Source: Siphonodentalium dalli (taxonomy: Eukaryota; Mollusca; Scaphopoda; Gadilida; Siphonodentaliidae). Taken from it: a stretch of DNA of 64,000 bases. The position numbers were made by a program, and so were the translations under genes. Where the stretch lies: assembly GCA_032622095.1 (NCBI GenBank), contig CP136066.1:93083319-93147318 (forward strand). Direction: 5' to 3'. How positions within the stretch are numbered: position 1 is the stretch's first letter; each line of letters opens with the position of its first letter. The notes below the pieces were generated by a model. That model was given only the letters and a program-made list of their open reading frames with translations, was not told where the DNA came from and searched no databases. Positions 27,528-49,082 of this stretch are shown here, in pieces.

Positions 27528-29311
27528 TCACACAACTGGTCCAAAGAACTCGTGGACGAAACTCCAGAAATCTGACATGTCTGGTAGGGGCTTAACCACG
27601 TGTTTACTTCCGGGCGGAGGTAAGGTAGGCAGGACCTGTTCCTGCTGGAAATGATTAGTGATGAGGAACACCTTGATGTTGTTCAGTACTGTCATAATGC
27701 TCTCAAATTCCGACGGCATGAATTTCCCAATCTTGACCTGACGTTGCATTAATACCTTCACAAGACGTAGTACCTTCGCAATGGATCTCAGTCCAACCGG
27801 TTTCACTATTGTCAACGGATCGTATGGTGTTGTCGTGGGTCCGGTTACCATGGCGACTGCAGGTAATGGTGGTCGTAGTATTGTCGTAGCCCCAAGCACA
27901 CCAGCAGTATGAACATTTGCCAGCGGTAAAGCAATATGCGCTTGCTGAAGTCCAACTCCACTCACAACTTGAGCAGGCAATGGAGGTGGATTGCCTCTAA
28001 TATTTCCACCAGTGGTAGCATTCCGTGTCATTTCGTTAAAACGTCGTGAAAGACTTGATCGAAAATGTTCCGCTGCCATGTTAATTGCTCTTGTTTGTCT
28101 GTCTAGAGTCAACCACTTTCTAAATCTTTGTTCGCCAAGTAATGACTCTTCTCCGAATCTTGGGAATGCAGTCTTCGCTGGACTGCTTCCTGTTATATTG
28201 GGATTCTTTTCCGACAATAGCATGAAGAGTGCCAATGAGTCGTTGCTATATTCCGCCAGTAGAGACTGGTTACTAGAGTTATATTCCGTCTGAAGAACTT
28301 GTGCGACACCTGCCGAGTTGGTAGTCCCGTTGGAATTTGTACTGTTTAATGGTTCATTGCTTTGGTTCTTCGATTGACCACTCGTTGAAGACGGTTCGGT
28401 TGATTGTGTGCCATTTCCTGTTCCGTCCGCTATTTCGTAAATCACACGAGGATCTGATTGTCTCGCTATTCCCGTCATTTCATATTTCTCATTTGATATT
28501 CCAAGCGTGTTTGCATTGTTATCCGTGTTGCTGCCTGTTGTTGAAGCAATGTGTTTTTCAAGTGTGATATTGTTGTGAGACTGGGATGGTCCGTTTGCCA
28601 TTATCGTTGACTGGGATGCATCGTTGCTTCCCATCGGTAGAGCAACTCCATGTGGTTTGATGCTTTGTGGAGATGAAGCCGTATCACCGTGAGGCGCTGG
28701 TGGGTTTCTCACTGGGAACTCACCAGGTGATGCTCCAAATGGCACGACCTGGATATTAGAAGATAGAGAAAGGTGCCCCTCCAAAGACAGCGGTTCGTTC
28801 GTTTGCGACAAATGCGTTCTCGTCTCGATAAAAGGGGAACCAATTTCTATGACATTTGAATCCATATGGCTATCGGCTGGTGATAACTTAGCTTTCTCAT
28901 TCGTCAATGCAGAAATTTGTGGTTCTGTCATATGGCCCGTCGTCTTATCTGACCCAAACGGCACAACCTGAATATTCGGCGACAGAGCAAATTGCGGATG
29001 TCCCGATCCAAGGTTTGTAGCGTGCTGAGGCTTTGATCCGACATGCTGCCCATTTGTTTGGCTGGCGCTCAGATTCACAACCGTTTCGTTGGTTTCTGCC
29101 ATTTTTGAAATGCCAAACTCCACCATACTGTTAGGATGGTCCGTGATCGGGTCCATTCGGCCATGATCCGCTATGTTCGGGCGTTCCAATTGTGGGACTC
29201 CTGGGTGACCTTCGGTTGTATTGGTTTCGCTTCTGGCATTATGTGAGGTAGACGCTTGTCGTTTCCTCCTCACTGGAGCAGGATTGTTTCCATGTCCTGT
29301 CTGGATCTCTC
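27528..29311 (-). CDS. Terminal exon 4c: secreted low-complexity protein, RRKR site and conserved C-terminal domain
   Basis: The exon starts after an acceptor (TTCAACAG at 29312-29319) in phase 1 and ends with TGA at 27528-27530, giving 594 codons including the stop. Early in the exon comes NPAPVRRKRQ, a furin-type site. About 380 residues of Ser/Asn/Thr/Gly/Pro-rich sequence follow, with a repeated SPNIQVVPFG/SSNIQVVPFG phrase. Then comes a helix-like motif (LDRQTRAINMAAEHFRSS), a Pro-rich linker, and a ~99-residue C-terminal domain beginning YDPLTIVKPVG, with FESIMTVLNNIKVFLITN in the middle and DFWSFVHEFFGPVV at the end. The last two modules are shared with exons 4a and 4b. There is a poly(A) signal 67 bp downstream. 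Exon limits are firm. Which upstream exon it joins is not. Confidence 0.85.
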
Positions 29312-30449
29312 CTGTTGAATCAGAGTAATATTAATTGCGTAACTTTTAAAATAATATCACACTGTTTACCCTTCAGTACAATAGATTTTGCTTTATTGAT
29401 AGTTTGACGTATCAAGATCATAGACCGTAACTTGGTTTGGCCTATTAGTGCAGGTAACGTCGTCGCTTCTGGTGAAATTTAACCCAGAATCTGTCAAAGA
29501 TATATTGCATCTGTGCTCTAACCAAACGTTATAATATGTCATGAATACCACGCCTCAGAAATTTACATGTATACGAAGTTTGACATTGGCATTAACTTAA
29601 TATGGTTAAGACAGGAATGAAGACGTGAACTCATAGGTCGTTGACAATTTAACCACGTATACCGGTTGAGAAAATTAAATATAGATGTATACTGTAGTCG
29701 ACTCAATCTACCTCGGATAGCTACACCCTTTTAAAGATGGTCTATATCTTCCCAGCAAATTTATATAGATTCCATGGTTCAATCTAACTCGGATAGCTAC
29801 ACACTTTTAAAGATGGTCTATCTCTTCAAAGCAAATTTATATAGGTTCCAGGGTATAAAATTATATATATGAATCGAGGACACCTATCCGGAAAATCTAT
29901 CAATTAATATCAATTTACACTCATGGGACAGTTTTAGGGGTTGTTTTTATAACAGAAATCCACAAAACGTTCGGAAGGTACGAAGAGCGTACAAAGAGAG
30001 CACAATATTTTGTCAGCACCCTCAACCAAGTTAGAAATTGAACAAATTAAATCTTCTTTCATAATCTTGAGATATCATACCATGAGTGTATGAACGATTT
30101 TACAGAAGTTCTTGGTACTTGAAAACAGTGAAATTTCAAATATTTTTCATGTCATAAAAGTTTAGTAAATATGACTATAATTCCAACAATTTGGTGGAAT
30201 ACTTTGTCACAAAATGATGGCTTGTAACAAATTTAAAAAAGAAATATCAGACAGATTTATGAGAAAATCCATGTTTGAATACCAAAAATATTTGGTAAAA
30301 CATGTCTGGCTCTCTAATAGTACTTTCTAATAGCAATTACTTTCTTTAACAATTTTAAACATTTTTTATCATTATTTCTTACATTCTTTAACAATTTTTG
30401 TTTTTTTTTCATTTTTCTTACATTTTTTAACAATTCTAAAAATAATACA
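29312..30449. other. Upstream of exon 4c: 76-bp direct repeat, otherwise unrecognised
   Basis: Two tandem units of about 76 bp (about 29700-29777 and 29778-29853) share CGGATAGCTACAC and TTTTAAAGATGGTCTAT. An AT-rich segment of TTAACAATTTT-type repeats lies at about 30340-30440. I found no leader exon with a phase-1 donor here. Confidence 0.5.
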
Positions 30450-30570
30450 AAATTTGTTACGCCAATGCATTCTCTTATATATGCGAGGCGACCTATGGTC
30501 GACTCGCATATATAAGAGAATGTATTGGCAGATGATTTTCGCAAAAATATCAAATGGACGCCACTGTTAG
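30450..30570. mobile_element. MITE family B, partial copy (hairpin core)
   Basis: A palindrome of about 60 bp built from CCAATGCATTCTCTTATATATG and its complement, followed by the family's GATTTTCGCAAAA phrase. The outer TTAACCCTT end is missing. Confidence 0.6.
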
Positions 30571-30665
30571 GTAATTGGACCAGTTCTTGTTTGAGTGTAA
30601 GACAAATGAGTGTTTATCGTATATAAGCGCTGGGCAGCGTGACAAGCATCACATGTTCCATTATG

Positions 30666-30886
30666 TTAACCATTTCTTCACTAAATACTCATTGACGAAA
30701 TGTTCAGATAATATGTTAAACAAACGGTTGTTGAACTTATTATCTGAACATTTCCCACTAATGAAATAGAATTCTTCTGCACTTGTATTATCTTTTGTGA
30801 ACATCCCTCAACATGAATAATAGCCCAATCCAATGTATACTTATATAACTGAGTGAGATAATCCAAATGGTACATAAAGGGTTATT
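30666..30886 (+). mobile_element. MITE family A, copy 1
   Basis: Starts TTAACCATTTCTTCACTAAA and ends near AAAGGGTTAT. It contains the family's internal stem TTATCTGAACATTTCCCA facing TGTTCAGATAATA. No coding capacity. The TTAA at the end fits piggyBac-type insertion. Confidence 0.75.
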
Positions 30887-30906
30887 CTACGCTGATGGTA
30901 TATATT

Positions 30907-31161
30907 TTAACACTTTCTATACTAAATACTCATTGGTTCCCTTATGACATATTCAGATAATAAGTTCAACAAACTACGATAGAACTTATTATCTGAACAT
31001 TTCCCACAAATGAATAGGAATCATTCTGCTCTTGTGTTATCTGTTCGTATATCTGGCATCTGCTTTTATAACATGAACACCCATCCAAATGAATAGTAGA
31101 CCGTTCCAATGTGTACTTTTATAACAGACTGTGAGAATCCATTCAATATAGACAGGGTTAA
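30907..31161 (+). mobile_element. MITE family A, copy 2
   Basis: Bounded by TTAA on both sides (30907-30910 and 31158-31161), with left end TTAACACTTTCTATACTAAA and right end AATATAGACAGGGTTAA. About 255 bp. The internal TTCAGATAATAAGTT hairpin is shared with other copies. Confidence 0.8.
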
Positions 31162-31411
31162 AGCGACTCGTAATCTGTAAGTCTCAAACAAAATAAAGCG
31201 AAGGAATGGTCTTTTGTCTCTAACACAAATAGCGTTTTCTGTTCGTTTCTTGCCGATATGGAAAAAATAAAGGGAGTTCGTGGAATTTCTCTGACTTCAG
31301 CAAGTCAAGTAGTCCTGCCATTTTGGTTAATATGTTGGTGGCTCCGACAGATTCAGCTATCATGTTAATGGGGATAAATGATGCTGTTAAAAAAAAGTAC
31401 AGTTAGGTTTC

Positions 31412-31619
31412 TTAACCCTTTTATGGCGGGAGCTGCGCTGGTGCAGCATTAAATATCTTGAGCCAGTGCATACCTTTATATATGCGATGCTCTCTAAGAG
31501 AATTCACTGACTTACAAGATCAAAGTAAATATTGTTAGGCCAATGCATTAGCTTATATATGCGAAGCGCCCTATAGATATTCGCAAAAATTCGGGAAGCA
31601 CTAGTCATGGAAGGGTTAA
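31412..31619 (+). mobile_element. MITE family B, copy 1
   Basis: TTAA at both ends. Left end TTAACCCTTTTATGGCGGG, right end CATGGAAGGGTTAA. Carries the GAGCTGCGCTGGTGCAGCATTAAAT stem and TATATATGCGA hairpins. Confidence 0.8.
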
Positions 31620-31806
31620 ACATTCATTTTGGAGATCTTTGGCAAATCTATATGATTCAAGACAATGACATTATATGTACGGAGTGTTTAGGTACCCAGC
31701 TATTTGAAAATATTTCAGAAAAATAACAATGGCTGTGAAAATTAATGAAAACCGACCCAAATGTAGGTTGCTATTTTGGTATTTCCGCAACAACGAAAGT
31801 ATCCAT

Positions 31807-31930
31807 TATTTAACCCTGTCTTAACTAAATATTCATTAATGATGAGTTTCCTTGGGAAATATTCAGATAATAAGTTAACTTGTTATTTGAAAATTTCTCA
31901 CCTACATGTCTGCCTGTAAAACTCAACAGA
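31807..31930 (+). mobile_element. MITE family A, 3'-truncated copy
   Basis: Begins TTAACCCTGTCTTAACTAAA and includes CTTGGGAAATATTCAGATAATAAG. The right half is missing and the next inverted-repeat element starts where it ends. Confidence 0.6.
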
Positions 31931-31939
31931 TTATATTCA

Positions 31940-32217
31940 ACAAATGAATGAATTTGAGCCAATGTTAATACAAAATACACTCATGTGCTCTTTTATATGA
32001 ACGATGCAAACAACATGGTAATTATAATGTAAATGGGTCGTCATAAACTCATTTTTAATTATAATTACCATGTTGTTTACATTGTTCATAGAGCACATGA
32101 GTGTATTTTGCATTAATCCATGGCTCAAAATCATTCATTTGTTGCATATATTTTACAAAAGGATATGGTCACATAAATGGCCGGATTTAGTGTACAGTTC
32201 CCATTTAAATGTATTAA
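31940..32217. mobile_element. Foldback MITE (CACTCATGTGCTC arms), copy 1
   Basis: The arms 'AAAATACACTCATGTGCTC...CATGGTAATTATAA' and their complement flank a short loop near 32040. The right side ends in CCGGATTTAGTGTACAG and TTAA. A relative at 34064-34294 shares the right-end text and the inverted phrase. Confidence 0.65.
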
Positions 32218-32751
32218 AATTGATATGTTCTTGTTTCCTACATTGTTGGATTTTCTTCGGATCGTCAATATTTATCAAAGTCCGCGATAAAGACAATTCA
32301 AGGAAAATAACGGTACTTTTTTTTAAGAGCATAATTTTTTCTCCGTGCACCAATATCCATTGCTGGATCAGCAGGACCTAACGCCACATGATCCTAGCAG
32401 GGCCAGTTAACCAGGGGTTAATATATATGACCTACGAAGTTTGGTAATCTACTGACTCCTCAATTATGGACCTACTCCCCCATTCAAACACAAGTTCGCT
32501 GTTATTGATCTACCGTATGGACTGCCTTCCAGAGTAGCTGTCTATATAACACTTGACTAACATAATATGATGAAAATACCCCTTTGCACTAAACCCTGCC
32601 CAGACATTAGTTAAAACGAACAATCAAACAAACTCCACCAAATGTTATAGCAACTAAATCAACCACAACCCATATAACAATAAGCTCCGGAAGGCACTGT
32701 ACCAAACACCATAAAATCACAAAATATTTAACTGAAACCATGTGAAAAATT
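32218..32751. other. Intron or intergenic stretch, nothing recognised
   Basis: AT-rich, with short chance frames (for example 32153-32381 on both strands). No splice-supported exon. Confidence 0.3.
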
Positions 32752-33154
32752 ATGGGAGGCCGTTTTCACATTTATTAATAGTTTGACTTAAGCACAATTT
32801 AATTGCTTAATCGCAATTACTTATACATGTACATATATCTACCCAATTTCGCTTTAGCACAATAACCACCCATCGAAGATCGAATGAGTTTCATAATCAG
32901 GTTTCGCTGGTTGTTTTGTGTTTTCTAAAATAATCTCACCGGATAGTCATACTGCAGAATATTCGATAAGAATTAACGGGATTGTTTTTATGGTGATAAA
33001 TAATTGTGCTTGAGCGCAATTCAATTGCGCTTAATTGTGAGTGAAATTACAGAATTTTAATAGCCCTTAAGCGAAATTGCTGCCCACTTAATGTTAACTG
33101 AATTGCGTTTAAGCTAAGTCCAATTATTTAACAATTGTGAAAATGCCCTCCCAT
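32752..33154. mobile_element. MITE family G with TATGGGAGGC termini
   Basis: The left end TATGGGAGGCCGTTTTCACA and right end TTGTGAAAATGCCCTCCCATA are inverted repeats. The interior is rich in TTGCGCTTAA-like words. It resembles the element at 13109-13410 next to the satellite. Confidence 0.65.
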
Positions 33155-34063
33155 AAAAATTAAAGGGACTGGCGTACGGTATTATCTATTTTATTCATCA
33201 GTGTGTCAGTGTAAGACTTCTAATTACAGGCAAAAATGGCTTGTTATAATGGAAAACCTGTATGAGTATGAAATTTTCTAAACTCTGTAAAAAACTGTAT
33301 GAGTAATCGTTTGAAAAAAAAATTCTGTTGCGTATATGAGAATCCTCGAAAAGTGACACACTAGATACAAAAACGAGCAATTACTAGGCTTGAAGCCACT
33401 TGGTGATCTGCGCTCTAAAATACACCTAATATTAATTCGCTTCTGAATTTTTCCCGGTAACGACAAACACTTGAAATACATGTACATTTCTACGAGCATT
33501 ATATGTCCCATAAAGTCCCATTGAAGTTATAAATAAATACAACTTTGATGGGAACACTACGTTTGGGTCCCAACCATTTACACGACATGGAACAGAAAAG
33601 AGCGTTCCTTGTTAGTGCATTCCTGATAAGGTAGAAATAAAGAGCGTTTTTTTTTCATTTCTGTGCGAAAAAAAATTCAAACAGTTGGAAAATGGCTGTG
33701 ACCATGACAAGTATCATATGAAGCCGGTATATCAATACGTCACGTATTTGTAAACATCTCATACCTCCTTTCAACTTACATAGAGAAAATATTAAAGCTC
33801 GAATGAGCCATGTTTAATTTGATGTTTGAATAGTATACGTCCAGTTAATCTCTTCATATAATGCACCCCACCCAAAGTCAATGCACTAGATATTACATAT
33901 TCACAGATTGACACATAATTATAAGTCCAAAATCGGTAAAACAACAAATGGCCCACCCAATTTGACGCGTCCACGCTGTCTGTGTTAATTATAAAATTGG
34001 TCAATGCATGGTCTATTTTGGATGGGTTAAATGGACAAATAAAATTCTGTCTTATTGGAATCC
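33155..34063. other. Intron or intergenic stretch with small repeats
   Basis: AAGAGCGTT words at about 33597 and 33645 match those at about 7003 and 59955. No exon recognised. Confidence 0.3.
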
Positions 34064-34294
34064 TTAAATGGGTACTGTACACTAAATCCGGCCATTCATG
34101 GGACCCTCTCCTCGAGTCATAAATTCATTTTCATTATAATTACCATGTTGTTTGCATCGTTCATAGAGCACATGAGTGTATTTTGCACTCATCCATGTCA
34201 TCCATGGCTCAAATTCATTCATTTGTGGCATATATTATGTTGTTTAAAAGGAGATAGTCCAATAAATGGCCGAATTTAGTATACAGTACTCATG
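34064..34294. mobile_element. Foldback MITE (CACTCATGTGCTC family), copy 2
   Basis: Left end TTAAATGGGTACTGTACACTAAATCCGG pairs with the inverted GGCCGAATTTAGTATACAGTACTCAT near the right end. The interior repeats the ATTACCATGTTGTTTGCAT phrase of copy 1. Confidence 0.65.
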
Positions 34295-34364
34295 TTATTC
34301 GTTAACAAATAATCAGCATGCTTATTTATCAAAACATTGAGAATTAGTTGCTATAACCGTGTAC

Positions 34365-34964
34365 TTAAAGGGGTACTGTACGCCATTTTCAATAAATTCC
34401 CGGTGATAACAACGATCTATTATCGATACTATATAGAAATATAAGTAATTTGAGTCGAAGATGTATTCTGTAAACGCTCAGGTTAATAGGCTATCTTAAA
34501 ATTTAATAATTTAAAAGTTAATAATTTAATATAAATTGATTTTATGGCTCCAGCCATAAAATGGCGTCTCTTAAAATTCGAATTTCCGTGTACAAAACGT
34601 AATCAAATTATAATTGAGGGATACTGGATTAGGAAAACAATTTCACACACGATCGTTTGAAACATTATGCTTATACGGGGAGAAAACCCAAGCCACTCAT
34701 TGACTAGCGACGGTACACTAACTTAAATGAGTATATGGGACTACTAAGCATATAATATAATGTTTATTTGATTCATTTGGTTGAAAACTTTACAAAAATT
34801 ACTCGACAACGACAATTTGTATTTTTGCATTCCGGTAAATTTGCCATCCGTAACAATACTTCGTACTCAACAGACTTTCAAAAAATGGAAAAGTTGTTAC
34901 CTTATTCTCCGACTCGGGGATTATAGAAACCAACAACAACATCTTGGGTACAGTACCCCTTTAA
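34365..34964. mobile_element. TTAA-flanked element with 17-bp perfect TIR
   Basis: Left TTAAAGGGGTACTGTAC and right GTACAGTACCCCTTTAA are exact inverted repeats including the TTAA. About 600 bp with no transposase frame, so non-autonomous. Confidence 0.8.
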
Positions 34965-35454
34965 TTAAATGAAAATACTTTACTGTATTGTTGTTGTTCA
35001 AAATAAGACATTGTGGGCGAATTAGTGCTTACTCATGTTGATAATATACATTGCCCGATAGATTTATTTAATTTTTTGCGGTTCCCATTGCATATTTCAA
35101 TTACTACTTTTGTCCAGCTCGAAATTTATCAGTTGTTTATGTTCGTGTTTCCATATTTTTATTGTTTTAGTTACGTTTTGCTCGATGATCTCATATTTTG
35201 GTGTTTCAATCTGGCCAAAGTTTCTGAAAATGTCCCCCAAAAAGTCAGAACAGAAATTTCCGGCCAGCGTGACCGAAGCCTTACTGGGTTACAAACGATC
35301 ACATAGACACGAAGATCGCATAAAACCACCGACAGTGATTCGACAAGAATACGCATAAATTGTGTTTTGTTTTAATATTCGCCAGTAATTGGTAATGGAA
35401 TATTAAATGCTCGTTTGCATATGTGGCATATTTACTTTTTGAACGCCCAACTAA
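34965..35454. other. Stretch with a short unassigned ORF
   Basis: A plus-strand frame from ATG at about 35230 to 35358 (MSPKKSEQKFPASV at its start) is a little more GC-rich than its flanks. It has no partner exon or domain, so I do not call it a gene. Confidence 0.25.
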
Positions 35455-35640
35455 AATAAAAAAAAAACTGATCAAGCCAGGGGGGGGGGGGGGGTCGCGG
35501 ATTTTTTTTTACATGTATAGGGCGAAAAAAATGTTTTTGCCCCTCTCGTGGACCCACCACCCCTCTACCTGCAATTTTTTCCTTTTTTTCCGCCCAATTT
35601 TTGGGACCCACCCCCAAAATCTTACAAAAAAACATAAAAT
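35455..35640. repeat. Homopolymer-G dispersed repeat, copy 1
   Basis: CTGATCAAGCC followed by a ~16-G run and TCGCGGATTTTT. The inverted counterpart at 37300-37440 has GCGCGAC, a ~18-C run and CTGATCAAGC. A related G-run element lies at 59380-59480. Confidence 0.6.
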
Positions 35641-36114
35641 ATAAACCAAATCATAGCCTAGCAAAGAATTGTTCCATTACTTATTATTTAATACTATTCC
35701 CAGCATTTTAATAAACCTCTAAACTGCTCTAAGGGAGATAATTATATTAGTATAAAATGTGGAAATGCTGAATGCATGCACTTAAAAACATTGGGCATAA
35801 TGCCATAAAACATAATAATTATGAGGTAATACATTTCCTGATATCCTCAATAACTCCATATTCTTTTATATAACAATAGTATAAGATGTTTTAGAGCTAA
35901 GGCCCAATAGTAATACTGTAGTAATAGGGGTAGAACAAATTTCATCTCCCCTATTTCTGTTATATATATCTGCACATGGGTATGATGGGACCCAAGGAAA
36001 GTCACACTCACAGCAGCTCACAGTCTAAATACATGTATGTATGTCATGTTGGTGTGCAGATTGACATATACCAATATTAGTGAAGAATTGGTAGTATTAT
36101 TAACTTATTATTAG

Positions 36115-36321
36115 AGTATAAAGTTTAGTTTAAAGCCAGCGGAGATATCCAAGTCACGGTCACCTTGTACAAACCGTCCGTATACATGTAGGTGCCCCCT
36201 GTGCAATTTTGTTTACTGGACGTATCACATGGATACCCATTATAAGAACAAGCATCCTGGATCAGACTGTCCAGTTAAGATATGTGACTCTGAGAAAGTT
36301 CGCATGAAGAGAGTTGCATAG
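36115..36321 (+). pseudogene. Isolated C2H2 zinc-finger fragment
   Basis: The frame is open between the TAG at 36112-36114 and the TAG at 36319-36321 (68 residues). It contains CPLCNFVYWTYH then MDTHYKNKHPG, a C-x2-C-x11-H-x4-H pattern ending in KHPG as in many C2H2 fingers, with further Cys residues before it and after it. There is no nearby start with good context and no second finger. It is probably a decayed exon, or a piece of a transposon or host zinc-finger gene that moved here. It lies on the opposite strand to the main locus. Confidence 0.4.
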
Positions 36322-37299
36322 ATTACTTGTGCAGTTTGATCCAGGTTAGTATGATTTATAATTAGTTTCAAGAACAAAGTTCATATTAGTCATGTTTATA
36401 TTCTAGCTTTATGTTGCATATGGAATAAGTTGAGACTTTAATACCAAAAGCTACTTTTATAGTTACATTGCTCTATCCTGCTATATCCTAAATTGAATAT
36501 CAAAGCAACCAATAATGAACAAGCAACTAATAATTACAATACCATATGTATTGGCAGTCAAATAACTGGAACTCCAGATATACCACCTTACTACATGTAT
36601 CTGTACAGTACGTAACTGCTTCGACTTGTGAATAATAACTGTGGTTGAATTAATATCACAAAAGGCTAAGCTTTCATATTGTTATCCAAATAGTATGAAC
36701 TTTTTGTATGAGCTATTTTGTTTTATAGTTTTAAACCAGTGGAATATAGTGGAATTGTTATTTTTGTTTGTATCATCAAGTTTATCTTGATAACAAATAA
36801 TATCCATTATGTGGATTAATAACAGAAGATGGTAATCATTTCATAATTATGCTTATATGCAAGCATTGTCGACTGATTGTGTCTGAGCATATAATTATGT
36901 TATAACAGTTAACAAATTTGTCAAAAGTAATTGCAAATTTCATCTCAGAATTCATCAATATAAACTCAGCTTTATATTTTGTTCAAACCCTTAAAGGGAT
37001 ACACATGTGTATATATATAGCTATAACATACACTTTGACATCCAATTGAAAGGCTATCTTGGATATGCATATTATAAATGTTTGTTCTTGTGTTTTAATG
37101 TTTGTTATATGATTTGTTTATATATATATAATATATCTTTCATCCGTCAAAATCTGGTACATTAATTTTGACATACATCATCATACATACACCCCTAAAT
37201 GGTAGTTAGTTCTGGTTAGTATGTTTTAAATAGCCTAGTGTGTCATATGGTTGATATTAACAGATTACATGGGCGCAAAAACAGTGATTTTAAGTGGAG
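36322..37299. other. AT-rich stretch, nothing recognised
   Basis: No exon, hairpin or repeat partner recognised beyond scattered (TA)n runs near 37125. Confidence 0.3.
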
Positions 37300-37774: not shown

Positions 37775-38895
37775 TCAAATAGGGAACCCGAAGTATTCGC
37801 CAATCATTCCCCAAAAGTCTCCTGAAACACGAGGCTCGCCTCCCACTGGAGGCCCCATTGGTATCGGCATGCCTGGCCGATATACGTTGGCGACCAATAA
37901 GTTCGTTGAATCGTTCACTGCCATAAATGCTTCGAGGTATTGCCCTGGATACATTGGACCAACCATCCCTTGTCGTTCTAACAACATTTCCAATAATAGC
38001 AACAACCTTGAAATTGTTGCGAACCCAACGGGTGCAACACGAGACATAGGGTCGTACGGTGTAGTTGTTGTTGGTATTGTGGTAGTGGTTGTTGTTGGTA
38101 TTGTGGTAGTTGTTGTTGTGGTTGTAGTTGACATCGTCGTTGTTGTTGCTGTTGTTGTTGAGGTAGTGCTTGTAGGGTTAACATTATGTCCGGCGTTGAC
38201 TGCATACTGAGGCCCGGTGCCGTGGTTCCCACCAGCAGTTAATGCAATGACGCCAACTCCTGTTGACACTGCCGTTTGTGTGCCTCCGTGCACGTTATGT
38301 TGAGGAATGGCGTGATTACTTGTTCCGGTATGAGTTACGGTATGAGTTCCAGTATGAGTTCCGGTATGCATTCCGGTATGCATTCCTGTGTGCGTAGTTT
38401 GTGCACGAGTGTCTCCATGTAAGGTCTGTTGAGGCACAGCGTGAGTACCTGAAGCAAAATGACTTCCGGTCTGCGCAATTTGAACGTGGGGTGATCCCGC
38501 AAATTGGACGTTACTTCCTTGTCCAATCGGATGTGAAGACGAAGGAACCACGTGGCTGCTGACAACGCCGCCATGTGAGCCGGCTTGGTTATTTTGTAAA
38601 ACTGATCCTGCATGCACACCAGAGACTTGGTGCTGTTTATTCCCCCCAATCGCCGTTGCAGAATTGGTCAACTTGCTAGCGAAGTAAGCGTTTGGATCAA
38701 ATGATGACGTCTGACCTGTACGTGCAGACAGCGTCTGCATATTCTTCATAAATTTTTCCCGAAAGCGTTCGGCAGCTAGGTAAGCAGTGTATGCCATCTG
38801 TTCTATTGATTGGGGAGCTTGCCTCTTCCGTCGCACATGCGTGTTGGGAACAGCTGCATCCATGTGCTGTCCGGGTGCGGGCACATGCGAATCAA
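37775..38895 (-). CDS. Terminal exon 4b: His/Gly/Thr-rich secreted protein, RRKR site and conserved C-terminal domain
   Basis: The acceptor TCTAATTACAG (just above 38895) opens the exon in phase 1 and TGA lies at 37775-37777 (373 complete codons including the stop). Within 30 residues comes NTHVRRKRQ, then directly the helix-like motif (AYTAYLAAERFREKFMKNM). A His/Gly/Ser-rich middle follows with an HTG(M/T)HTGTHTGTHT run. Next is a Thr-rich mucin-like tract of about 45 residues (TTTTTIPTTTT type), then the ~95-residue domain from YDPMSRVAPVG to DFWGMIGEYFGFPI. Unlike in 4a and 4c, almost no spacer separates the furin site from the helix motif. Long antisense frames (Val-rich at 37869-38210) are shadows of the Thr tract. 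Confidence 0.85.
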
Positions 38896-39280: not shown

Positions 39281-39543
39281 TTAACCCTTCCACGAGAGGA
39301 GCTTTGTGAAATTTTGCGAAAACCCTGCGCCAATGTATTCTCTTATATATGCGAGTATCCCATAGGGAGCCTCTTATATATAAGATAATACATAGGCCTA
39401 ACAATATTTACCTTGACCTTGTAAGCCAATGCATTCATGTATATATGCGAAGCTCACTATGAAAGAGTCGCATATATAAGAGAATGCACTGACACATGAT
39501 CTTTAATGCTGCACAAGCGCGGCTCCCGCCATTAAAGTGTTAA
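39281..39543 (-). mobile_element. MITE family B, inverted copy
   Basis: TTAA at both ends (39281-39284, 39540-39543). The right end reads AATGCTGCACAAGCGCGGCTC, the inverse of the family's left end. Two TATATATGCGA hairpins are inside. Confidence 0.8.
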
Positions 39544-39946
39544 AAATAACAAGTGCTGTCTATATTTCAGTACACATTCGTTCGGTTCCCAATTGTGCTT
39601 ATAATTCCAGTTTAGTTGTTGCATGGTTACTATCAATTGTCCTTTTTTGTTTCAGACAAGAAGGTACTGAAAGAAACGTCTGAACGGTCATATTTCCCGA
39701 ATTACTCATGCAATAATACCGCACTTAGACATATATATATTGCGGTAGTGAATACTGAGCTATTGACATACCGCACATGGAGTCACAAGCTGCCATGCAT
39801 TCGTATCATTCAACTGCGGACATTAATTGATCTCCATTTCAAGAGATCCAAATACCAAATGCTGCACTAAGATATTATATGTATGTATAGACCAGGAAAT
39901 ACCGGTTTATTAAATGTTAATGCAAGGTATTTAAATAAGATCTAAC

Positions 39947-40162
39947 TGAACCCTTTCTTTAATAAATACTCATTGACGAATAGTTCCCTTGGGAAATTCT
40001 TGTTAAACTTATTATCTGAATAGTTCATGTCAATACATAGGAATCCGTCTGCACTTGCATTATCTGTTTGTCCGTCTATCGTCCATCCAGAAGAAGAATG
40101 AACCAACCCAATGTATACTTTTATAACTGGTGGGAGAATAGATTCAGTAAAGAAAGGGTTAC
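39947..40162 (+). mobile_element. MITE family A, copy 4
   Basis: Left end GAACCCTTTCTTTAATAAAT, right end TAAAGAAAGGGTTAC, so the TTAA is mutated on both sides. It sits 45 bp from the candidate exon at 40208. Confidence 0.75.
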
Positions 40163-40207
40163 AATTTGTACAACTAGAATTATGAAATTGCGTCAGAAAT
40201 AACATAC

Positions 40208-40342
40208 CTGTCGCAATTCCAACTCCATCACCCACGGACCACGTGACATCTCTAAATATAGAATTCCCATCGGTGAGTAGCTTCTCCGTTATTGTTCTTG
40301 GAAAAATGAACTTGAAAATCCGATATGTCCAGTAAACAAATA
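40208..40342 (-). CDS. Candidate small symmetric exon (phase 1-1), unconfirmed
   Basis: On the minus strand a Y-rich acceptor (CATTTCACCCTCTAAATACACAG) precedes 135 bp without stops, ending GCGACAG before GTATGT, which is almost identical to exon 2's donor (GCAACAG before GTATGT). It would read in phase 1 and leave in phase 1. The encoded 44 residues end DGNSIFRDVTWSVGDGVGIAT, weakly like the end of exon 2 (GGQIFPDN...NAT). It may be an extra exon of the locus or a leader-side exon of a separate 4b gene. The acceptor choice is uncertain. Confidence 0.3.
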
Positions 40343-41045
40343 CTGTGTATTTAGAGGGTGAAATGAATGTTTGGTTCGATATGTCGAATTTGACTTGAAA
40401 CATATGTCCAAAGAACATCCCGAGAACAAGTGAACTATAACTGACAATAAATTATCCGTGGGATCAGTGGCGTTGAAAAATTTCAGTATTTTGAAATGTA
40501 GTACCACATGCATAAAGCTTTTTTCAAATTCGTCAATATGTTGTTACTCTCTTATAATAGGTAATTTTGTATTGTATTCTTTGTTGTTGTTTTTTTTCTA
40601 TTTTCTCTTTGCATTTATCGGTGTATATATATATTCGCGAAACTTCAATTAAAATTGTTTTTTAAAGACATAATCCGGTTATTTTCAAGTGGCATACATT
40701 TGTCAAATTGTATAGAGTCATGTAACTTTAACTAATGTTAACAATCATCAATCCAATTGGGAGTGTTATTACCAGGCCGTCATCGCTATAATTAGAATGT
40801 GCTCGAATTCAACAAATATACAAATTATTTAAAAGTGTGAAGGACCCTATACAATTTGGCCAACTTTATGCCACATGACAATAACAGGACTATTCCCTCA
40901 AATATCAACTACCAGTGATGTGATGATGGATACGCTTATGAATGGGAATGTTGGCTGACACCCAAGGTCCAGGATGGTGGAATTGGAATTTCATTCGCGA
41001 TCATCCGTTATGTTCTTGTCTTGCCTGCCGATATATGCAGTTATG
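40343..41045. other. Intron or intergenic stretch, nothing recognised
   Basis: AT-rich. Plus-strand frames here are T-rich chance frames. Confidence 0.3.
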
Positions 41046-41183
41046 CCCTAAATAATCGACTCCTTAACCACAGCAGAAAGTGGGAGCTTTCCGATGAATG
41101 GCAACAAGCCATATTTCCGACTAAATCCTGAAAAATTACCCATAATTATGCTGTGGTTAAGGAGTCGATTATTTAGGGCATTA
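41046..41183. repeat. Inverted repeat with ~30-bp arms
   Basis: CCCTAAATAATCGACTCCTT plus AACCACAGCA on the left is matched exactly, inverted, at 41150-41180, with a ~75-bp loop. Foldback element. Confidence 0.85.
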
Positions 41184-41220
41184 CTGTATGTTCCAAATCA
41201 ATATGTCTTTGTGTTAGCAA

Positions 41221-41413
41221 TTAACCCTTTCTTTACTAAATACTGGAGTAGTTATCTTAATAACAGTTCAGATCATAACTTCAACAAACGACCATATTGT
41301 TTTGTCTACCGTCTGCTTTTATTACGTAACATCCCTCCAAATGAATAATAGACCATTCAAATGTATACTTTTATAGCTGAATGGGAGAATACATATACTA
41401 TAGAAAGGGTTAA
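41221..41413 (+). mobile_element. MITE family A, copy 5 (clean TTAA ends)
   Basis: TTAACCCTTTCTTTACTAAA on the left and TATAGAAAGGGTTAA on the right, with TTAA on both sides. About 190 bp. Confidence 0.85.
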
Positions 41414-41450
41414 CACATTTCGGCCACGCGTACGGTTATCTGAACATATC

Positions 41451-41690
41451 TTATAACCCTTTATATACTCTATACTCATTGACAAGTAGTTATCCCTTTG
41501 GAAATGTTCAGATAATAAGTTCATCAAATAAATAGGTCGTTTCCCCTCCAATATTTGAACTCCTACTGCCAGTTTAGTATCTGGCGTCTGCTTATTTTTC
41601 CTGCAAACCCCTCCAGATGAACAATATACCATTCCAAATGTATAGTTCTATAACTGAGCGGAAGAATTCTGTTATCGTGGGAAAGAGTTC
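41451..41690 (+). mobile_element. MITE family A, copy 6 (diverged)
   Basis: Starts TATAACCCTTTATATACTCT, contains AAATGTTCAGATAATAAGTTC, and its right end is degraded (GGGAAAGAGTTCATT). Confidence 0.65.
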
Positions 41691-41921
41691 ATTAGGCGAA
41701 TGGTTTATGATCACACCCAGCCACATTTGTTTTACCTCTTTGTGTGTACAAATATACTCAAATAGAAATGTCAATCAGAAATTCACACCAAAGTGTTACT
41801 TTGAACACGTACAGCGCAGGATAACAAAGATTATTCCACAAATAAGTAGAATTACTTAACGCGAACGTATGATTAATCTAAACTTGTTATTCATAACAAA
41901 CATACGTTTTAGATGTGATCT

Positions 41922-42075
41922 CAGTTATAAAAGCATACATTTGGAATGGTACATTGTTCATCTGGATGGGTTTTCGTGAAAAATAAGCTGTCAACAGATA
42001 ATAAGCGTACAGTACGACTCCAAATATTGGAAGGAAAACGACCTATATATGATGAACTAAGTTCAATTCGCGACG
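41922..42075 (-). mobile_element. MITE family A, copy 7 (inverted, partial)
   Basis: CTCAGTTATAAAAGCATACATTTGGAATGG is the reverse complement of the family's right half. It stops about 140 bp beyond the stop codon of exon 4a. Confidence 0.6.
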
Positions 42076-42218
42076 TGAAGATCATGTCCCGCTTTATATC
42101 TCCATATGTATGGTATATCCACACGAGGACTAAGGAGTCAGAATATAAACTCTCCGAATGTGATATTTTAAAAACAAATTTTAACATAGTCTCATACAGC
42201 CACTTCTGCGAACAAAAC

Positions 42219-43402
42219 TCAAACCATCACGCCGAAATTTTCTGGGATAGCCATCCAGAAATCAGTCAAATCGATCGGCTCCCCCATTGGGTCTCCTGTC
42301 CTGGTCATCGGAAACCTCGCAGGTGCCAAGCCAGACTGGTACTGATTTGTCACCAAGAACACCTTCATGCTGTTCAATACAGTCATTACATTTTCAAATT
42401 CCTGACCGATGAAAGGTCCAACTGTTGCTTGCTTCTCTATGAGCAACTTTACCAAACGTAGCAGTTTAGTTATTGGTCCCACTCCAGTCTGCTTGATTAC
42501 CGAGAACGGGTCATATCGTGTTGTTGTTGGGAGTGTGGTGGTTGTAGTTGTCGGTGTTGTTGTGATAGTTGTCGGGATTGTCGTCGTTGTTGTTGTGGCG
42601 GCGGCGGTTGTCGTAGTTGTCGCGACTGGGGGGTTCAGGTTTGGCATCGCCGCGTTATGACCGGCTACAGTATTAGGTGGTCCTATATTGGCCGCCAGGC
42701 TAGGGAGCCCAGATCCACCAATAGATGTCCCAGAATTAGCAGGAATATTCAATATGGAAGGTAAACTGTTTCCAGTGTTGGCCCCACCGGTGGGTTGGGC
42801 TGCGTTAATTGACGTCATACTCTGGCGGAAACGCTCCATGATACTTTTCCTGAACTGTTCCGCAGCCAAATATGCGCCATACGTTTGGCGGTCCATTTGT
42901 ATTCCGTTATGAACTATCATATCAGACGTCGCAGACCCAGAACCAGCCGTATTGCTGACCTGACCAGACACTCCCAATGAACCGGTCGACGCTCCAGGTA
43001 CATGCGCAGATGGAGAATTAATCGCTGGATTGGGCGCATGTCCTGTTCCAGAATTCAACGCAGGAAGTTGAGAAGCAATATTACTGACACTGTTCGTTCG
43101 AGACACGGCGATGTTAGATACGACTGGATTGGGCGCATGTCCTGTTCCGGTATTCATTCCTCCTCCAAATGAAGCCGTCGGTGCAAGAGGCGCGGCGTGA
43201 GAATTAATTTGTGAACTCTGCAAGCCACTCCCAGAATTCAACGCAGGAAGTTGAGGAGCTATATTACTGACACTGTTCGTTCGAGACACGGCTATGTTAG
43301 ATACGACTTCAGCGTTCTTGTTGTTCGACATACCAATGATATGCCGTTTACGTCGTATTTGGGCTTGTGTGTTTGGAGCAGCACTTCCGGGCTGCGCCTC
43401 AG
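42219..43402 (-). CDS. Terminal exon 4a: Asn/Ser/Thr-rich secreted protein, RRKR site and conserved C-terminal domain
   Basis: The acceptor TTTATTCACTTTCAG opens the exon in phase 1 at 43402 and TGA lies at 42219-42221 (394 codons including the stop). It starts EAQPGSAAPNTQAQIRRKRH, giving the furin-type site. A spacer of about 130 residues with duplicated SNIAVSRTNSVSNIA-QLPALNSG blocks follows, then the helix-like motif (MDRQTYGAYLAAEQFRKSI), a Pro/Asn/Gly-rich part and a Thr-rich mucin-like tract. The conserved domain runs from YDPFSVIKQTGVG through FENVMTVLNSMKVFLVTN to DFWMAIPENFGVMV. It is the closest downstream partner of exon 3, at about 4.3 kb. Confidence 0.87.
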
Positions 43403-43697
43403 CTGAAAGTGAATAAAAGTCAGGCGTAATAAATCTGACAAGAAAAACTTAAGAGTGGATCATCCGCTATCATATGTATATCATCGGTGTGAAATTCGCC
43501 GCTGTTCTATGATTTAATTGTGCATGTACGTGACGTGTAAGCATAGGAATTGCGATCACGCATTAACTGATGTTGATCCTGTTAGCTAAAATGTGATATC
43601 TGCCGAAACTTAGGATATACATGCAAGGACGTATTGAAAAGTGTGTGAATTACCATGTTCCCACTTCCTTGTCGAATGCAATATGCGCCATGTGTCG

Positions 43698-43924
43698 TTA
43701 ACCCTTTCATGACAGGAGCTGCGCTAATGCAGCATTAAATATCCTGCATATATAAGAGAATGCACTGTCTTACAAGTTCAAGGTAAACATTGTTAGGCCA
43801 ATGCATTCTTATACATGCGAGGCTCCCTATGGGAGATGGGAGACTCGCATATATAAAAGAGAATGCATTTGCCCAGGGTTTTCGCAAAACATTTGATGAA
43901 GCTCACGTCATGGAAGGCTTAAAT
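43698..43924 (+). mobile_element. MITE family B, copy 3
   Basis: TTAACCCTTTCATGACAGGA on the left and CATGGAAGGCTTAA on the right, with TTAA on both sides. The GCATATATAAGAGAATGCA hairpin is inside. Confidence 0.8.
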
Positions 43925-44337
43925 ACTGTGCTGTAGCCAAAATCTAATTAAACATCGTGGAGTAGCTGTAAACATATGTACTTCTCCAAAAATTGTCGCG
44001 GACTTCCCTTTTCGATTAAAATATGTACATTCTTATTGCGATAAACACATAAATACTAGGAAGATATTTGACAAAACTTGCAAGCAATCTAAACACATCT
44101 TCAAAATGACAGTGCATGCACTAAACTTTACGTTCCATGCGTATTATATTAGGTGTTCATCAAATAATAGATGAAAATTTCGCATGGGACAATGCGTTTC
44201 TCAACCACAAACTATTAATTTCCAAAACACGAGTATTTGATAAAGTATCAAGCTTGCGGTTTCGCCAAATAGCGTCCATAACTGTAAAGTCTCAATAACA
44301 AAGCCCTCTCAAAAGTTACTACTAGTGATCAACTTAC

Positions 44338-44440
44338 TCTGAGTTAGTGGTCTGGTGAATATTTTGATGTCTTCTTCGTTCAAGGCAAGAAACAAAACGA
44401 ATATGAATATCCAAGCGGCCAAAGCTGAATTTTCCAACAG
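44338..44440 (-). CDS. Candidate hydrophobic leader exon next to exon 4a, unconfirmed
   Basis: Minus-strand reading gives LAAWIFIFVLFLALNEE, a signal-peptide-like stretch, then IKIFTRPLTQ and an AGA before GTAAGTT donor in phase 1. That phase fits exon 4a's acceptor 936 bp downstream. No ATG is visible in the frame before it meets a MITE (44443-44694), so the true start may be upstream of the MITE, in another exon, or lost. If real, it would make 4a a separate secreted-protein gene. It could also be chance. Confidence 0.22.
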
Positions 44441-44442
44441 CC

Positions 44443-44694
44443 GTAACCCTTTCTAAACTAAATGTATTCTCCCACTCAGTTATAATAGTATACATTTGAA
44501 TGGTTTATTATTCATCTGGAGTCTTGTTCAGGATCAAATAAGTTGAGGGCTGATAATAAACACACAAAAGCGGTCGTATTTATTGGAGGTAAATGTTCAG
44601 TAATAAGTTCAGCAAAAGGTCGTCTTTTATTCAACTTATTATCTGAACATTTCTTAGTGAACTACTCATCAGTGAGTATTGAGTACTGAAATGC
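44443..44694 (-). mobile_element. MITE family A, copy 8 (inverted)
   Basis: GTAACCCTTTCTAAACTAAATG at the left, then GTTCAGTAATAAGTT facing AACTTATTATCTGAACATTTC inside. The right end GTATTGAGTACTGAAATGCTTAA is diverged. It abuts the candidate leader exon. Confidence 0.7.
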
Positions 44695-44764
44695 TTAATG
44701 ACTCAAGACTGAAGGAATCATAGAAATACATCAAGCACTACGTGATGACGGTTTTTATAGCGTT

Positions 44765-44979
44765 TTAAACCTTTCAGTGCCAAGTCCGATTTTTGTATCA
44801 ACCCATATTTCCTTGATCATTTTTCAAATTTATTGATTATAATAATGTGATACATTGATGGTAAGAGCTCTAAGAGCTCTTTCCATCAATATATCACATT
44901 ATTATAATCAATAAATTTGAAAAATGATCAAGGAAATATGGGTTGATACAAAAATCGGACTTGGCACTGAAAGGGTTAA
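44765..44979. mobile_element. Near-perfect palindromic element with TTAA ends (family C)
   Basis: Two arms of about 100 bp are almost exact inverted copies (CCTTTCAGTGCCAAGTCCGA to CCATCAAT and back), meeting at AGAGCTCTAAGAGCTCT. TTAA flanks both ends (44765-44768, 44976-44979). The CCTTTCAGTG-type end and TTAA suggest a piggyBac-derived foldback MITE. Confidence 0.9.
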
Positions 44980-45896
44980 ACACTCGAAATATGAGTGGCG
45001 TGTCATTATATAAGTTCCCATGGGGCACCTCGTGAAGTAATTACATGTACATTAATCTTAACGAGAGTTGCCTAAACCTCACACGAATTCCCCACCTCCT
45101 CAATTGAACTTATAGATTATCTTTTCATTTTCTTTTTGATATTTCGACAATACTGGTATTTTTCGCTTGGCATGATTAGTAAATTCAAACAAAAATGGTG
45201 TTTACCATGTTGCATATAATACTAACATGGGTTCGTACCGTTTGAGAGGGCTTCATTGTCGAACCGGTTATACGAACTAGATGATATAAGAAATAATACA
45301 GTAGCAGGTAGTGAGTACTTTTGGTATGCAAATAAGCATATACGATGCGGAATTAGAGTACATGGTGTGGGACAATTCTTCTGAAGCCAAAGAGAGTATA
45401 GGTGGAATAACATAACAGTGTGACAACGTCCATTCGTTTCCAAATCAGTTGATTAAACTAACGACCAGTCACCATCCATGCAGCCCAATACCAAAGCGTG
45501 AACCTATATACCTGCGTTCTGTGCATAACTTGCAGTGTCGTTCAGTAGATTGTCATGGGGTCTATGTTCACCGGCTGTCAAAGATAGTATACTATCTAAT
45601 AGGCTACCTCCAAGGACCGCGCTTGTTGTCTGTTGAGTGCTGAAAGGGTCTGAAAGCGGAGCAAATATATTTAACATCCAGAACAAGCAACAGCATATAA
45701 ACTAGAAACAGAAGTGGTGCGTTTAGAGTTTATAAGGCGTGCATTTGTGTGTACTGTGTGTCCCATGCACCAACATCATAGCATCACAGCAGAACAAACC
45801 AACAACAGAGCCCATATAGCAATATAACAGAACAAGCGAACCAGAGTTGTGACAACAACAACATTGATATTTGACATAAGCCAGATAACATAATAA
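44980..45896. other. Intron stretch (between exons 3 and 4a), nothing recognised
   Basis: Only short chance frames on both strands. Confidence 0.3.
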
Positions 45897-46318
45897 GCAT
45901 AATAGTATGGCTGAATAGATCACTGTCGCATGGTTTCGAGCAAAAAGACACCCAGGATCTCTCAAACGGGCAAAAAGACACCCAGGGTGTCACAAACAAG
46001 CAAAATGACACCCAGGATATCAAAGTCTCACCAAACAACGGGAATTTTGTTTAGTCGTCTGCTGTTAATATTGGTCCAATTATCAAGGATACGCGCGGAA
46101 CTGCGCTGCCAGTCAGACTCAAAGCCCATTTAAATTTCGTTGATATTTCACTTCGATCACAACCATATAATTATCATAATACTAATACTAATAACAAAAT
46201 TCCCGTCGTTTGGTGAGACTTTGAGATCCTGGGTGTCATTTTGTTTGTTTGGGAAATCCTGGGTGTCTTTTTGCTCCAAACCATGCGACAATGACCTATT
46301 CAGCAATAGTATGGGTTA
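45897..46318. mobile_element. Foldback element with CACCCAGG-rich arms
   Basis: The left arm contains three GACACCCAGG words (about 45949, 45979, 46009) and CACCAAACAACGGGAATTTTG. The right arm is its inverse with CAAAATTCCCGTCGTTTGG and two CCTGGGTGTC words. The arms are about 120-140 bp around a ~150-bp centre. The right arm has one fewer repeat. Confidence 0.85.
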
Positions 46319-46580
46319 TTAGCGACGACATGCAAGGCCAAGAAACAACGTCACCCACCAAGTCTCTAACCCAAAACTGTTTTTATTTTTTATTTGTAAA
46401 CATATATAAACGTTTGTCTGACGGTATATACTAGGAAGATGAGCTGTGGAAATTCACTATGCACATTCAAAAATCAGTAATCGTTAAAAACTCATATTTA
46501 TTACTAAAATTTACAAGGAAAATAGGTATCGATTGTGCCCGATTTTGAATATCAAGCACACCTCAACCATTTATTAGATC

Positions 46581-46832
46581 AAGCCTTGAAATAGTGTGGT
46601 TGTCATTTGCAGAATGAGGTCCCCAGAGGGTGAATTTAGTGATGCTACCCCGCATAGCGGGCTAGCATCACCAAATTCACCCTCTGGGAACCTCATTCTG
46701 CTGAGGTGTAAGCAGAAGGAGGTCACCAGAGGGTGAATTTGGTGATGCTAGCCCGCTATGCGGGGTAGCATCACTAAATTCACCCTCTGGGGACCTCATT
46801 CTGCAAATGACAGACACACTATTTCAAGGCTT
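46581..46832. mobile_element. Near-perfect 250-bp foldback element
   Basis: AAGCCTTGAAATAGTGTG at the left is matched by CACACTATTTCAAGGCTT at the right. Each arm itself contains a nested palindrome (GAGGGTGAATTT-GTGATGCTA-CCCGC...). The loop is about 15 bp. Confidence 0.9.
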
Positions 46833-47687
46833 GTATTAGATATTCGTCAAATACACAATCCCTTTTATTCGTAAATACAATGACTCCTGCAATAAATATA
46901 TCTAGCTCATTCACCGATTGAGTTCCAGGTAGCAGCTATCCGAACGTCTGCAGCGACGGTTTAGAGATTACATTAGTGACGTATGTTCTTGACCCTGAAT
47001 GTTACGTTCGTACAGATGGTAATTTTTTGGGATTGTTCATGCAAATCGTCACATATAGCTATTTATTGCACACATTTTAGAGATGCTCTTCATAGTTATA
47101 GAAATGTGTGTTCGCGAGTGTCTTATCGGTTATTAGATCTATGGAATTCCACGAGTGATTGCACGGTTTATTCTTTCCAAATATATGAAATAAGAAATGT
47201 CAGTCGATTAATAACTGACACATAATTTATCTTACTATACATGCAGTAATCTGTTGAGGGTATGCATTGTATGAGTAGTTTGTCGTTCATATTATCTATC
47301 CTATAGCAACCTAGATCCCTCTAAGATAAATTGCCTGAAAAACGCCATTCAAATTTTCCAGCAAGTAAATTTATCGTAATTGAAGTGAAACTTTGTTTTT
47401 TCAGAAATACTTGTCTCTCACACAAAATATATCATATATTGGTGTAGTTGACTTACAGTTAGATATAACCCCATTGGCATACAGTCAGAAATGTAACTGA
47501 TGCAATTTGCCAGGTATTGAATGTAACCCAGCATTTCGAAGATTTGATTGTTGAAGTGCACCAGAGCTATATGCATCAATACTACCATTAATCTGAACAC
47601 ACATATTTACTGTGAATTAGAGCCTTTTCATTTTTAATATACAATATCTCTGCTCCCCAACCCAGAGTTTTCTTCTATGACACTAAC
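46833..47687. other. Intron 3, proximal part
   Basis: No repeat or exon recognised. The plus-strand frame 46983-47225 has no supporting splice sites. Confidence 0.3.
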
Positions 47688-49082
47688 CTGTGGTTTGTTG
47701 TCCATGAGCCATGGTCGTCGTAGAACCGGAAAATCCGTGAGCTGCGGTCGTCGTAGAACCGGAAAACCCGTGAGCTGCGCCAGGTATACCTGTTGTTGTA
47801 GACTCTGTGCCGGGTAGAACAGTCGTGGTAGATCCCGTTGACAAACCGAATAGTCCCTGATCCATCGTTGTCCCTCTGGTAGTGGTGCCGGTGCTTAAGT
47901 GTGGATTTCCGGTTGGTTGCATTGTTCCGGTGTGTGCGTTTGCCATTATGGTGGACATTGTGGTTGTAGCTGTGTCCTGGTGAAGATTAGCTGCTGCTGT
48001 TGTCGTTGTCGATTGTGTATTTGGTGCCGTCGATGTCGACTGTGTATTCACAGACGTTGACGAGAATGGGTGACCAGCATGTTCCACTGGTAGCACGTTT
48101 GGTCGTGATGCTGATATCGCCATGACGTCACTACCCTGGGGACGGTTAAGTAAGATAGCATCGTTGCCCACAACTTGAGGAATAATGAGGGTTGTCTTTC
48201 TTGTCGTGAATGGCGTCTCGGTTTCTAGGGGATGGTTATGTGCCACTCCACCGACAATAATCGTACTGTGCGTGATATCGCCGATAGGATTTACTTGGCC
48301 TCCACTGGACGCCACGTTACTTGCATCTGCTGTTCCCATTGAAAGACCACTCAATGGTACGTGACCTGCATCTGCTGTTCCCATTGGAAGACCACCCAAC
48401 GGCACGTGACCTGCATCTGCTGTTCCCATTGGAAGACCACCCAACGACACGTGACCTGTATCTGCTGTTCCCATTGGAAGACCACTCGACTGCACGTGGC
48501 CTGCATCTGCTGTTCCCATCGGAAGACTTGGAATACCACTCAATGGCACGTGGCCTGCATCTGCTGTTCCCATTGGAAGACCAGTCAACGGCACGTGACC
48601 TGCACCTGCTGTTCCCATCGGAAGACCACCCAACGACACGTGACCTGCATCTGCTGTTCCCATTGGAAGACCACTCGACAGCAAGTGGCCTGCATCTGCT
48701 GTTCCTACCGGAAGACTTGGAATACCACTCAATGGCACGTGGCCTGCATCTGCTGTTCCCATTGGAAGACCAGTCAACGACACGTGACCTGCATCTGCTG
48801 TTCCCATCGGAAGACTTGGATGATCACTCAACGGCACGTGACCCGCATCTGCTGTTCCCATCGGAAGACTTGGATGACCGCTCAATGACACGGGGCCTGT
48901 CGCTGCTGCTCCGGGTGAAACATCAACGTTAGCTATACCAGAAGGAAATACACCGTTTATTGGATGATTGTGCAGTTCACCACCGAACATAAATTGGTTG
49001 TTGTTGTTCAGTTCGTTGGTTTGCGGTGCCACACCGTTGAGGCCGTGTTGACTTCCCGTACCGCGATGATCAACCGTCGCGC
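47688..49082 (-). CDS. Exon 3: 15/18-residue tandem-repeat segment of the secreted protein
   Basis: The acceptor TTATTTTCGGTTCGCAG and donor CCACAG before GTTAGTG bound a 1395-bp exon, phase 1 in and phase 1 out. After a short Asn/Gly/His-rich start come 12 tandem units of the form (G/D)(L/H/I)P-(SL)P-MGTADAGHVPLS, of 15 residues or 18 with an inserted PSL. Then a non-repetitive part with NHPLETETPFTTRKTTL, and a Thr-rich tail with repeated STTT-AAHGFSG. Little hydrophobic core is present, so it is likely disordered or fibrous. The exon can be skipped without changing frame. The 203- and 175-residue plus-strand frames across it are mirror images of the repeat. Confidence 0.85.

Follow-up and report, generated by a model that had tools for sequence, protein, structure and literature searches.

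We describe a locus of the scaphopod mollusc Siphonodentalium dalli that may be one secreted-protein gene with three alternative last exons, a reading to which we give a probability of roughly 0.44. The locus lies on the minus strand of a 64,000-nt stretch of contig CP136066.1 (assembly GCA_032622095.1, positions 93,083,319 to 93,147,318). We call this whole stretch the window and count coordinates from its first letter. A head of four exons (e1, e2, e3 and e3b) is followed by three homologous terminal exons, or tails (4a, 4b and 4c), and the joined frames stay open whichever tail is used.

Three tandem terminal exons carry a conserved domain

The terminal exons 4a (42219..43402, 1184 nt), 4b (37775..38895, 1121 nt) and 4c (27528..29311, 1784 nt) stand in tandem on the minus strand and are homologous, each with its own acceptor and stop, as expected of alternative last exons. 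The preliminary description of this DNA had reported an AG acceptor in phase 1 and a separate stop for each, which we verified; all three stops are TGA. The phase-1 frame is the sole open frame in each tail, and none has a start codon of its own, the exon beginning at its acceptor. The spacing between tails, repeats included, is 3.3 kb (4a-4b) and 8.5 kb (4b-4c). On the opposite strand from e3 to 4c, we found no open frame of at least 150 amino acids (aa) except antisense overlaps of e3, 4a and 4b.

An RRKR motif, the RxKR-type site of furin-cleaved polyproteins, is kept in 3 of 3 tails (43355-43344 in 4a, 38833-38822 in 4b and 29270-29259 in 4c) and falls at residue 16, 21 and 14 past the acceptor, respectively. 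The tails also have in common a helix motif, AAE.FR, and a C-terminal domain (42527-42222, 38068-37778 and 27836-27531). This domain is ~100 residues long, and 23 of its alignment columns are invariant. Identity to the domain of 4c is 42% for 4a and 33% for 4b. These shared elements had been proposed earlier and hold up. An AlphaFold2 model of the domain gave three helices at low confidence (mean pLDDT 55.8) and was too poor for a fold search.

The open frames run for 393 (4a), 372 (4b) and 593 (4c) codons, each with P of ~2e-10 or less under a random model at 43% GC. Within the C-terminal domain, third codon positions diverge more than first and second positions in all three pairs (Fisher p 2e-5 to 9e-5). 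This pattern indicates that 4a, 4b and 4c are under constraint, and expression is for that reason to be expected.

When 4a was used as a query against the whole genome (2.23 Gb), only 4a, 4b and 4c were returned at E <= 0.001. A query with 4b again returned these three, along with three weak matches (E 0.03-0.39), two of them confined to the T-rich linker and one just reaching into the C-terminal domain. Among the 7985 candidate proteins sharing most words with the three-tail alignment, no relative was found at E <= 0.01, and the single PDB match of 4a (E 0.77) was taken as chance. A Pfam scan of e1, e2, e3, 4a, 4b and 4c gave no domain above the cut-off. The proteins of the locus look new.

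A common head can be joined in frame to each tail

The initial exon, e1 (62485..63279, minus strand, 795 nt), encodes a signal peptide (MWKQLSIWIIFVHSSFC...) followed by a Q/R-rich segment and ends in a phase-0 donor. With a hydrophobic score of 2.83 and a donor score of 10.4, it is by sequence a good signal-peptide exon; no Pfam match was found for it at E <= 1. The internal exon e2 (53432..55556, minus strand, 2125 nt) enters in phase 0, leaves in phase 1 and encodes a G/S/A-rich body. Its acceptor scores 8.3 and its donor 10.1, and a basic site, RRNR, at residue 30 resembles the RRKR of the tails. A genome search with e2 returned itself alone at E <= 0.001. The next exon, e3 (47688..49082, minus strand, 1395 nt), enters and leaves in phase 1 and has tandem GLPMGTADAGHVPL-like repeats, a T-rich end, an acceptor of 10.6 and a donor of 8.8. 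For comparison with the e2 and e3 donors, sites scoring at least 10 occur at ~0.08 per kb in the flanks and those scoring at least 8.8 at ~0.25 per kb. Both donors lie within the final eight codons of their open frames.

A start between e2 and e3, ATG 52167 (MLVLGMASSYATVQE), was tried as a leader of e3 and rejected with a donor of only 2.8. We also rejected the idea that e3b, the tail of e2 or the tail of e3 had diverged from a copy of the terminal domain. None of their alignments outdid shuffles, the best (e3b vs 4a) being reached by 102 of 1000, and a profile comparison of e2 with the three-tail alignment gave probability 0.

The preliminary description had built its upstream model from e1, e2 and e3. 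These exons and their joins hold, and an internal exon between e3 and 4a had been overlooked: e3b (45512..45649, minus strand, 138 nt, phase 1 on both sides). Exons were scored with a small gene-finder whose splice-site weights came from general knowledge and whose codon usage was trained on these same exons, minus e3b. The e3b score of 27.9 was reached in 0 of 400 dinucleotide shuffles of its interval. Of 74 control blocks of 5 kb, one reached it, through an exon with a VWA domain. A tandem-repeat stretch elsewhere in the window (7922-8038, plus strand) scores at the e3b level as well, at 28.1. By its position and score, e3b speaks for 4a having a long head. Two tandem copies of a 103-bp unit (46609-46804), each palindromic by eye, also lie in the intron that separates e3 from e3b; a stretch within them (46800-46681) has a coding-like score of 25.4.

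Joined as e1-e2-e3-e3b-4a, the exons make a frame of 5637 nt and 1878 aa that is open from the signal peptide through the stop. The same head joined to 4b gives 1857 residues and to 4c 2078 residues. The joins of 4b and 4c are in frame with or without e3b, and no joined frame is interrupted before the conserved stop. Without e3b the totals are 5499 nt (4a), 5436 nt (4b) and 6099 nt (4c), exactly the lengths given earlier for the tails joined to exons 1-3. The donors of e2 and e3, as had been noted, and that of e3b are all phase 1 and match all three tail acceptors, as expected of shared upstream exons. Because duplicated exons inherit the phase of the original, this three-phase agreement is hardly informative. 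It is weak evidence and counts as one fact, not three. Donor-like sites above 5.5 inside 4a, 4b and 4c number 14, of which 10 are likewise in phase 1, and no model requires any of them.

In the model that we favor, the last exon of one secreted-protein gene would have been duplicated twice in tandem. The shared head would be spliced via phase-1 junctions to 4a, 4b or 4c and would direct the product, of one of the three lengths above, into the secretory pathway. A furin-type proprotein convertase would then cut at RRKR, 14-21 residues past the junction, and perhaps also at RRNR in e2; this cleavage is predicted from the motif. Each tail would thereby be freed as a mature protein with a low-complexity body, the helix and the conserved C-terminal domain. 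The splicing choice itself is one that we infer from sequence. If it is made, the choice of last exon would decide which low-complexity matrix protein is released.

Scans for private leader exons before the tails

If each tail instead belonged to its own gene, it would need a leader exon. A stricter minus-strand scan for signal-peptide starts (hydrophobic score >= 2.0, donor >= 4) made e1 stand out. Before 4b and 4c it gave three candidates, all before 4c and none with a phase-1 donor. A relaxed scan (score >= 1.8, phase-1 donor >= 5) found one start before 4b and three before 4c, compared with 0.7 and 1.8 expected from a control rate of 0.21 per kb; two of the three before 4c share donors. 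A start before 4c with a donor of 6.5 (ATG 30509/30470) was set aside; by eye, it lies in a palindromic repeat that is also present before 4a and 4b.

When acceptor and donor both had to exceed 4, the highest exon-like score was 12.6 before 4b (reached by 91 of 200 shuffles) and 11.0 before 4c (reached by 119 of 133). Both are typical of shuffled sequence. Among simulated 20-codon exons with good splice sites, 83% score 18.3 or more, an in-sample figure on which signal-peptide exons may do worse. When e1, e2, e3 and e3b were compared with the DNA before 4b and 4c by tblastn on both strands, no match was better than E 1.5. A blastp search of all frames for similarity to leaders gave, among the matches listed, mostly repeats. 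The scans found no complete leader exon before 4b or 4c.

One further candidate came from a looser acceptor gate. The frame 40451-40208 (minus strand), before 4b, scores 18.3 in its best version, with a strong phase-1 donor (10.1) and an acceptor of 2.9. We rejected it as a leader of 4b: 18.3 is reached by 13 of the 74 control blocks, which were longer (5 kb) and held to a stricter acceptor gate. The frame shares FVYWTY with a zinc-finger-like frame at 36115-36321 (plus strand), a match seen in 0 of 500 shuffles, and because of this it is probably a repeat relic. The frame at 36115-36321, between 4b and 4c, is itself small and open, and its match to Sina_ZnF (E 0.003) is below the cut-off.

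Separate genes, trans-splicing or silenced copies

The preliminary description had offered either one head with several tails or a tandem duplication. There are points for each, and either may hold. In the second reading, 4a, 4b and 4c would be the main exons of separate tandem genes, and every one of these genes would have a promoter to itself and a short signal-peptide leader with a phase-1 end. A short propeptide would be removed at RRKR, and the e1-e2-e3-e3b gene would end in 4a or would have been joined to it secondarily. We regard this and alternative last exons as nearly even, and the following observations weigh against a shared head for all three tails. An RRKR 14-21 residues past each acceptor is the layout of ordinary pre-pro-proteins. 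Tandem secreted-protein genes are generally commoner than alternative homologous last exons, and phase-1 introns just past signal peptides are common. The terminal exons are separated by the 3.3 and 8.5 kb given above, with repeats between them. Two hydrophobic exon candidates lie between e3b and 4a, where 0.2 are expected. One of these, at 44338..44448 (minus strand, LENSALAAWIFIFVLFLALNEEDIKIFTRPLTQ), is phase 1 on both sides, has a donor of 6.8 and a hydrophobicity equalled by 1 of 33 candidates in 368 kb of control DNA. It looks like the core of a signal peptide and would fit a private pre-pro leader. However, it has no ATG, its acceptor scores only 2.8 and, on its 5' side, it adjoins the end of a repeat resembling a miniature inverted-repeat transposable element (MITE). 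It may be a signal-peptide exon private to 4a or a former leader, or it may have arisen by chance. Before 4c, ATG 32741 opens a signal-peptide-like start (32639..32741, minus strand, MVSVKYFVILWCLVQCLPELIVIW...) with a hydrophobic score of 3.59, topping all other starts in the five scanned intervals. Only 2 such starts occur in the 368 kb of control DNA, and 0.05 would be expected in its interval. Within 140 nt, however, its best donor in any phase scores 3.1 and its phase-1 donor only 2.0. Here too, a private leader (of 4c), a former leader or chance may be the explanation. The high score of the frame ending at 40208 belongs on the same side of the balance, and our scans would miss first exons that are very short and signal peptides interrupted by an intron. 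Lastly, polyA signals are poor after two of the tails. The first 670 nt past the stops of 4a and 4b contain neither AATAAA nor ATTAAA, the nearest being at +896 after 4a and at +676 (ATTAAA) after 4b, and 4a has a TATAAA at +121. After 4c, an AATAAA (27456..27461, minus strand) follows 67 nt past the stop. Since such a hexamer turns up in 8031 of 20000 random stretches of 300 nt, the evidence from polyA signals is weak. Against separate genes, nothing before 4b passes the hydrophobic-exon gate, and a looser gate gives one short stretch before 4b (41854-41813) and one before 4c (36526-36467). Neither 4b nor 4c is preceded by a clear likeness to the hydrophobic stretch found before 4a, the best alignment score of 22 being reached by 54 of 1091 control sites. 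The presence of e3b between e3 and 4a also argues for a long head, at least for 4a.

Two further explanations are much less probable. It is improbable that only 4a is used and that 4b and 4c are silenced copies that lack leaders. The missing complete leaders, and for 4b the lack of a nearby AATAAA or ATTAAA, would fit. Yet 4b and 4c, whose deep divergence leaves 30-42% identity, have intact frames, acceptors and stops and biased third-position change, and dead copies that old would be broken. Still slightly less probable, in our judgment, is trans-splicing, in which the tails would be transcribed separately and joined to one head as at Drosophila mod(mdg4), a precedent described in PMC12692577. 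It would explain both the in-frame fit of the joins and any promoters that may lie between the tails. The sequence does not require it, however; the exons are in order on one strand and cis-splicing suffices. To explanations other than these four we give the smallest share of all.

Surroundings of the locus

Some 3-14 kb outside the window, past its low end, are two exons that lie on the other strand and run convergently to this gene. One encodes a VWA domain (window positions -14264..-13542, plus strand, E 3e-10) and the other two CBM_14 chitin-binding domains (-3872..-3240, plus strand, E 6e-20). We assume that they form one gene. Judged by its domain matches, this pair is a Pif/BMSP-like shell matrix combination, and because it lies nearby, the locus described here may plausibly act in a shell or another extracellular matrix. 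An innexin lies further out in the flank and speaks for a protostome.

MITE-like repeats, which have TAACCCTTTC at their ends and TTCAGATAATAAGTTC as their core, occur at ~40152-44978 and also near 30733-30982 and 56384, several of them between the terminal exons. Elsewhere in the window, an open frame at 9395-9949 (minus strand) has a sub-threshold match to an adenain-like cysteine protease (Peptidase_C5, E 0.0065); such proteases occur in large DNA transposons. A tandem array of 214/239-bp units occupies 11411-13106.

Relation to known genes and implications

The arrangement had seemed undescribed at first sight. For the architecture this does not hold, as MASP1, CAPZB and mod(mdg4) already join common exons to alternative 3' exons, and genes with alternative last exons are known. 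According to passages of PMC4465641, human complement MASP1 (MASP-1, MASP-3 and MAp44) takes its protease domain from homologous alternative exons with below 33% identity, and passages of PMC10855846 describe three protein products made via alternative splicing or polyadenylation. Insofar as those passages cover it, MASP1 is like our model in having one secreted head with alternative 3' ends. Its tails are folded proteases and its products are proven, whereas here there are three low-complexity tails with a small C-terminal domain that is (poorly) predicted to be helical, and splicing is predicted. Human CAPZB joins common exons to alternative 3' exons (PMC4465641) and Drosophila mod(mdg4) joins common exons to one of several 3' exons (PMC12692577). 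To that extent, both resemble the model here, but mod(mdg4) differs from a cis-splicing model in using trans-splicing. The proteins of mod(mdg4) and CAPZB are intracellular, unlike the secreted protein predicted here.

Pif is a secreted precursor that is cut at a basic RMKR into N-terminal and C-terminal matrix proteins, as passages of PMC11291548 describe. To judge from these, the likeness to Pif/BMSP consists in a secreted precursor with a basic RxKR split site. It does not extend to domains, since e1, e2, e3, 4a, 4b and 4c have no VWA or CBM_14 match and no sequence relationship is demonstrated. A literature search for alternatively spliced terminal exons in shell matrix proteins found no report, and among the 10 listed of 1,072 papers from a further search none mentioned shell matrix protein; this is not proof of absence.

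It is possible, though we think it less likely than not, that the locus is a "cartridge" matrix gene, in which a constant secreted head would be spliced to one of three interchangeable tails, a furin cut just past the junction would free each of them and exon choice would set the secreted composition. If 4a, 4b and 4c belong to separate tandem genes, the locus is a small gene cluster for secreted proteins, of an ordinary kind. If instead they are alternative last exons, several diverged matrix proteins would be controlled through a single promoter and a single signal peptide, and their mix would be set by splicing and not by transcription. The locus would then offer a testable route to how matrix composition is tuned in a secreting tissue.

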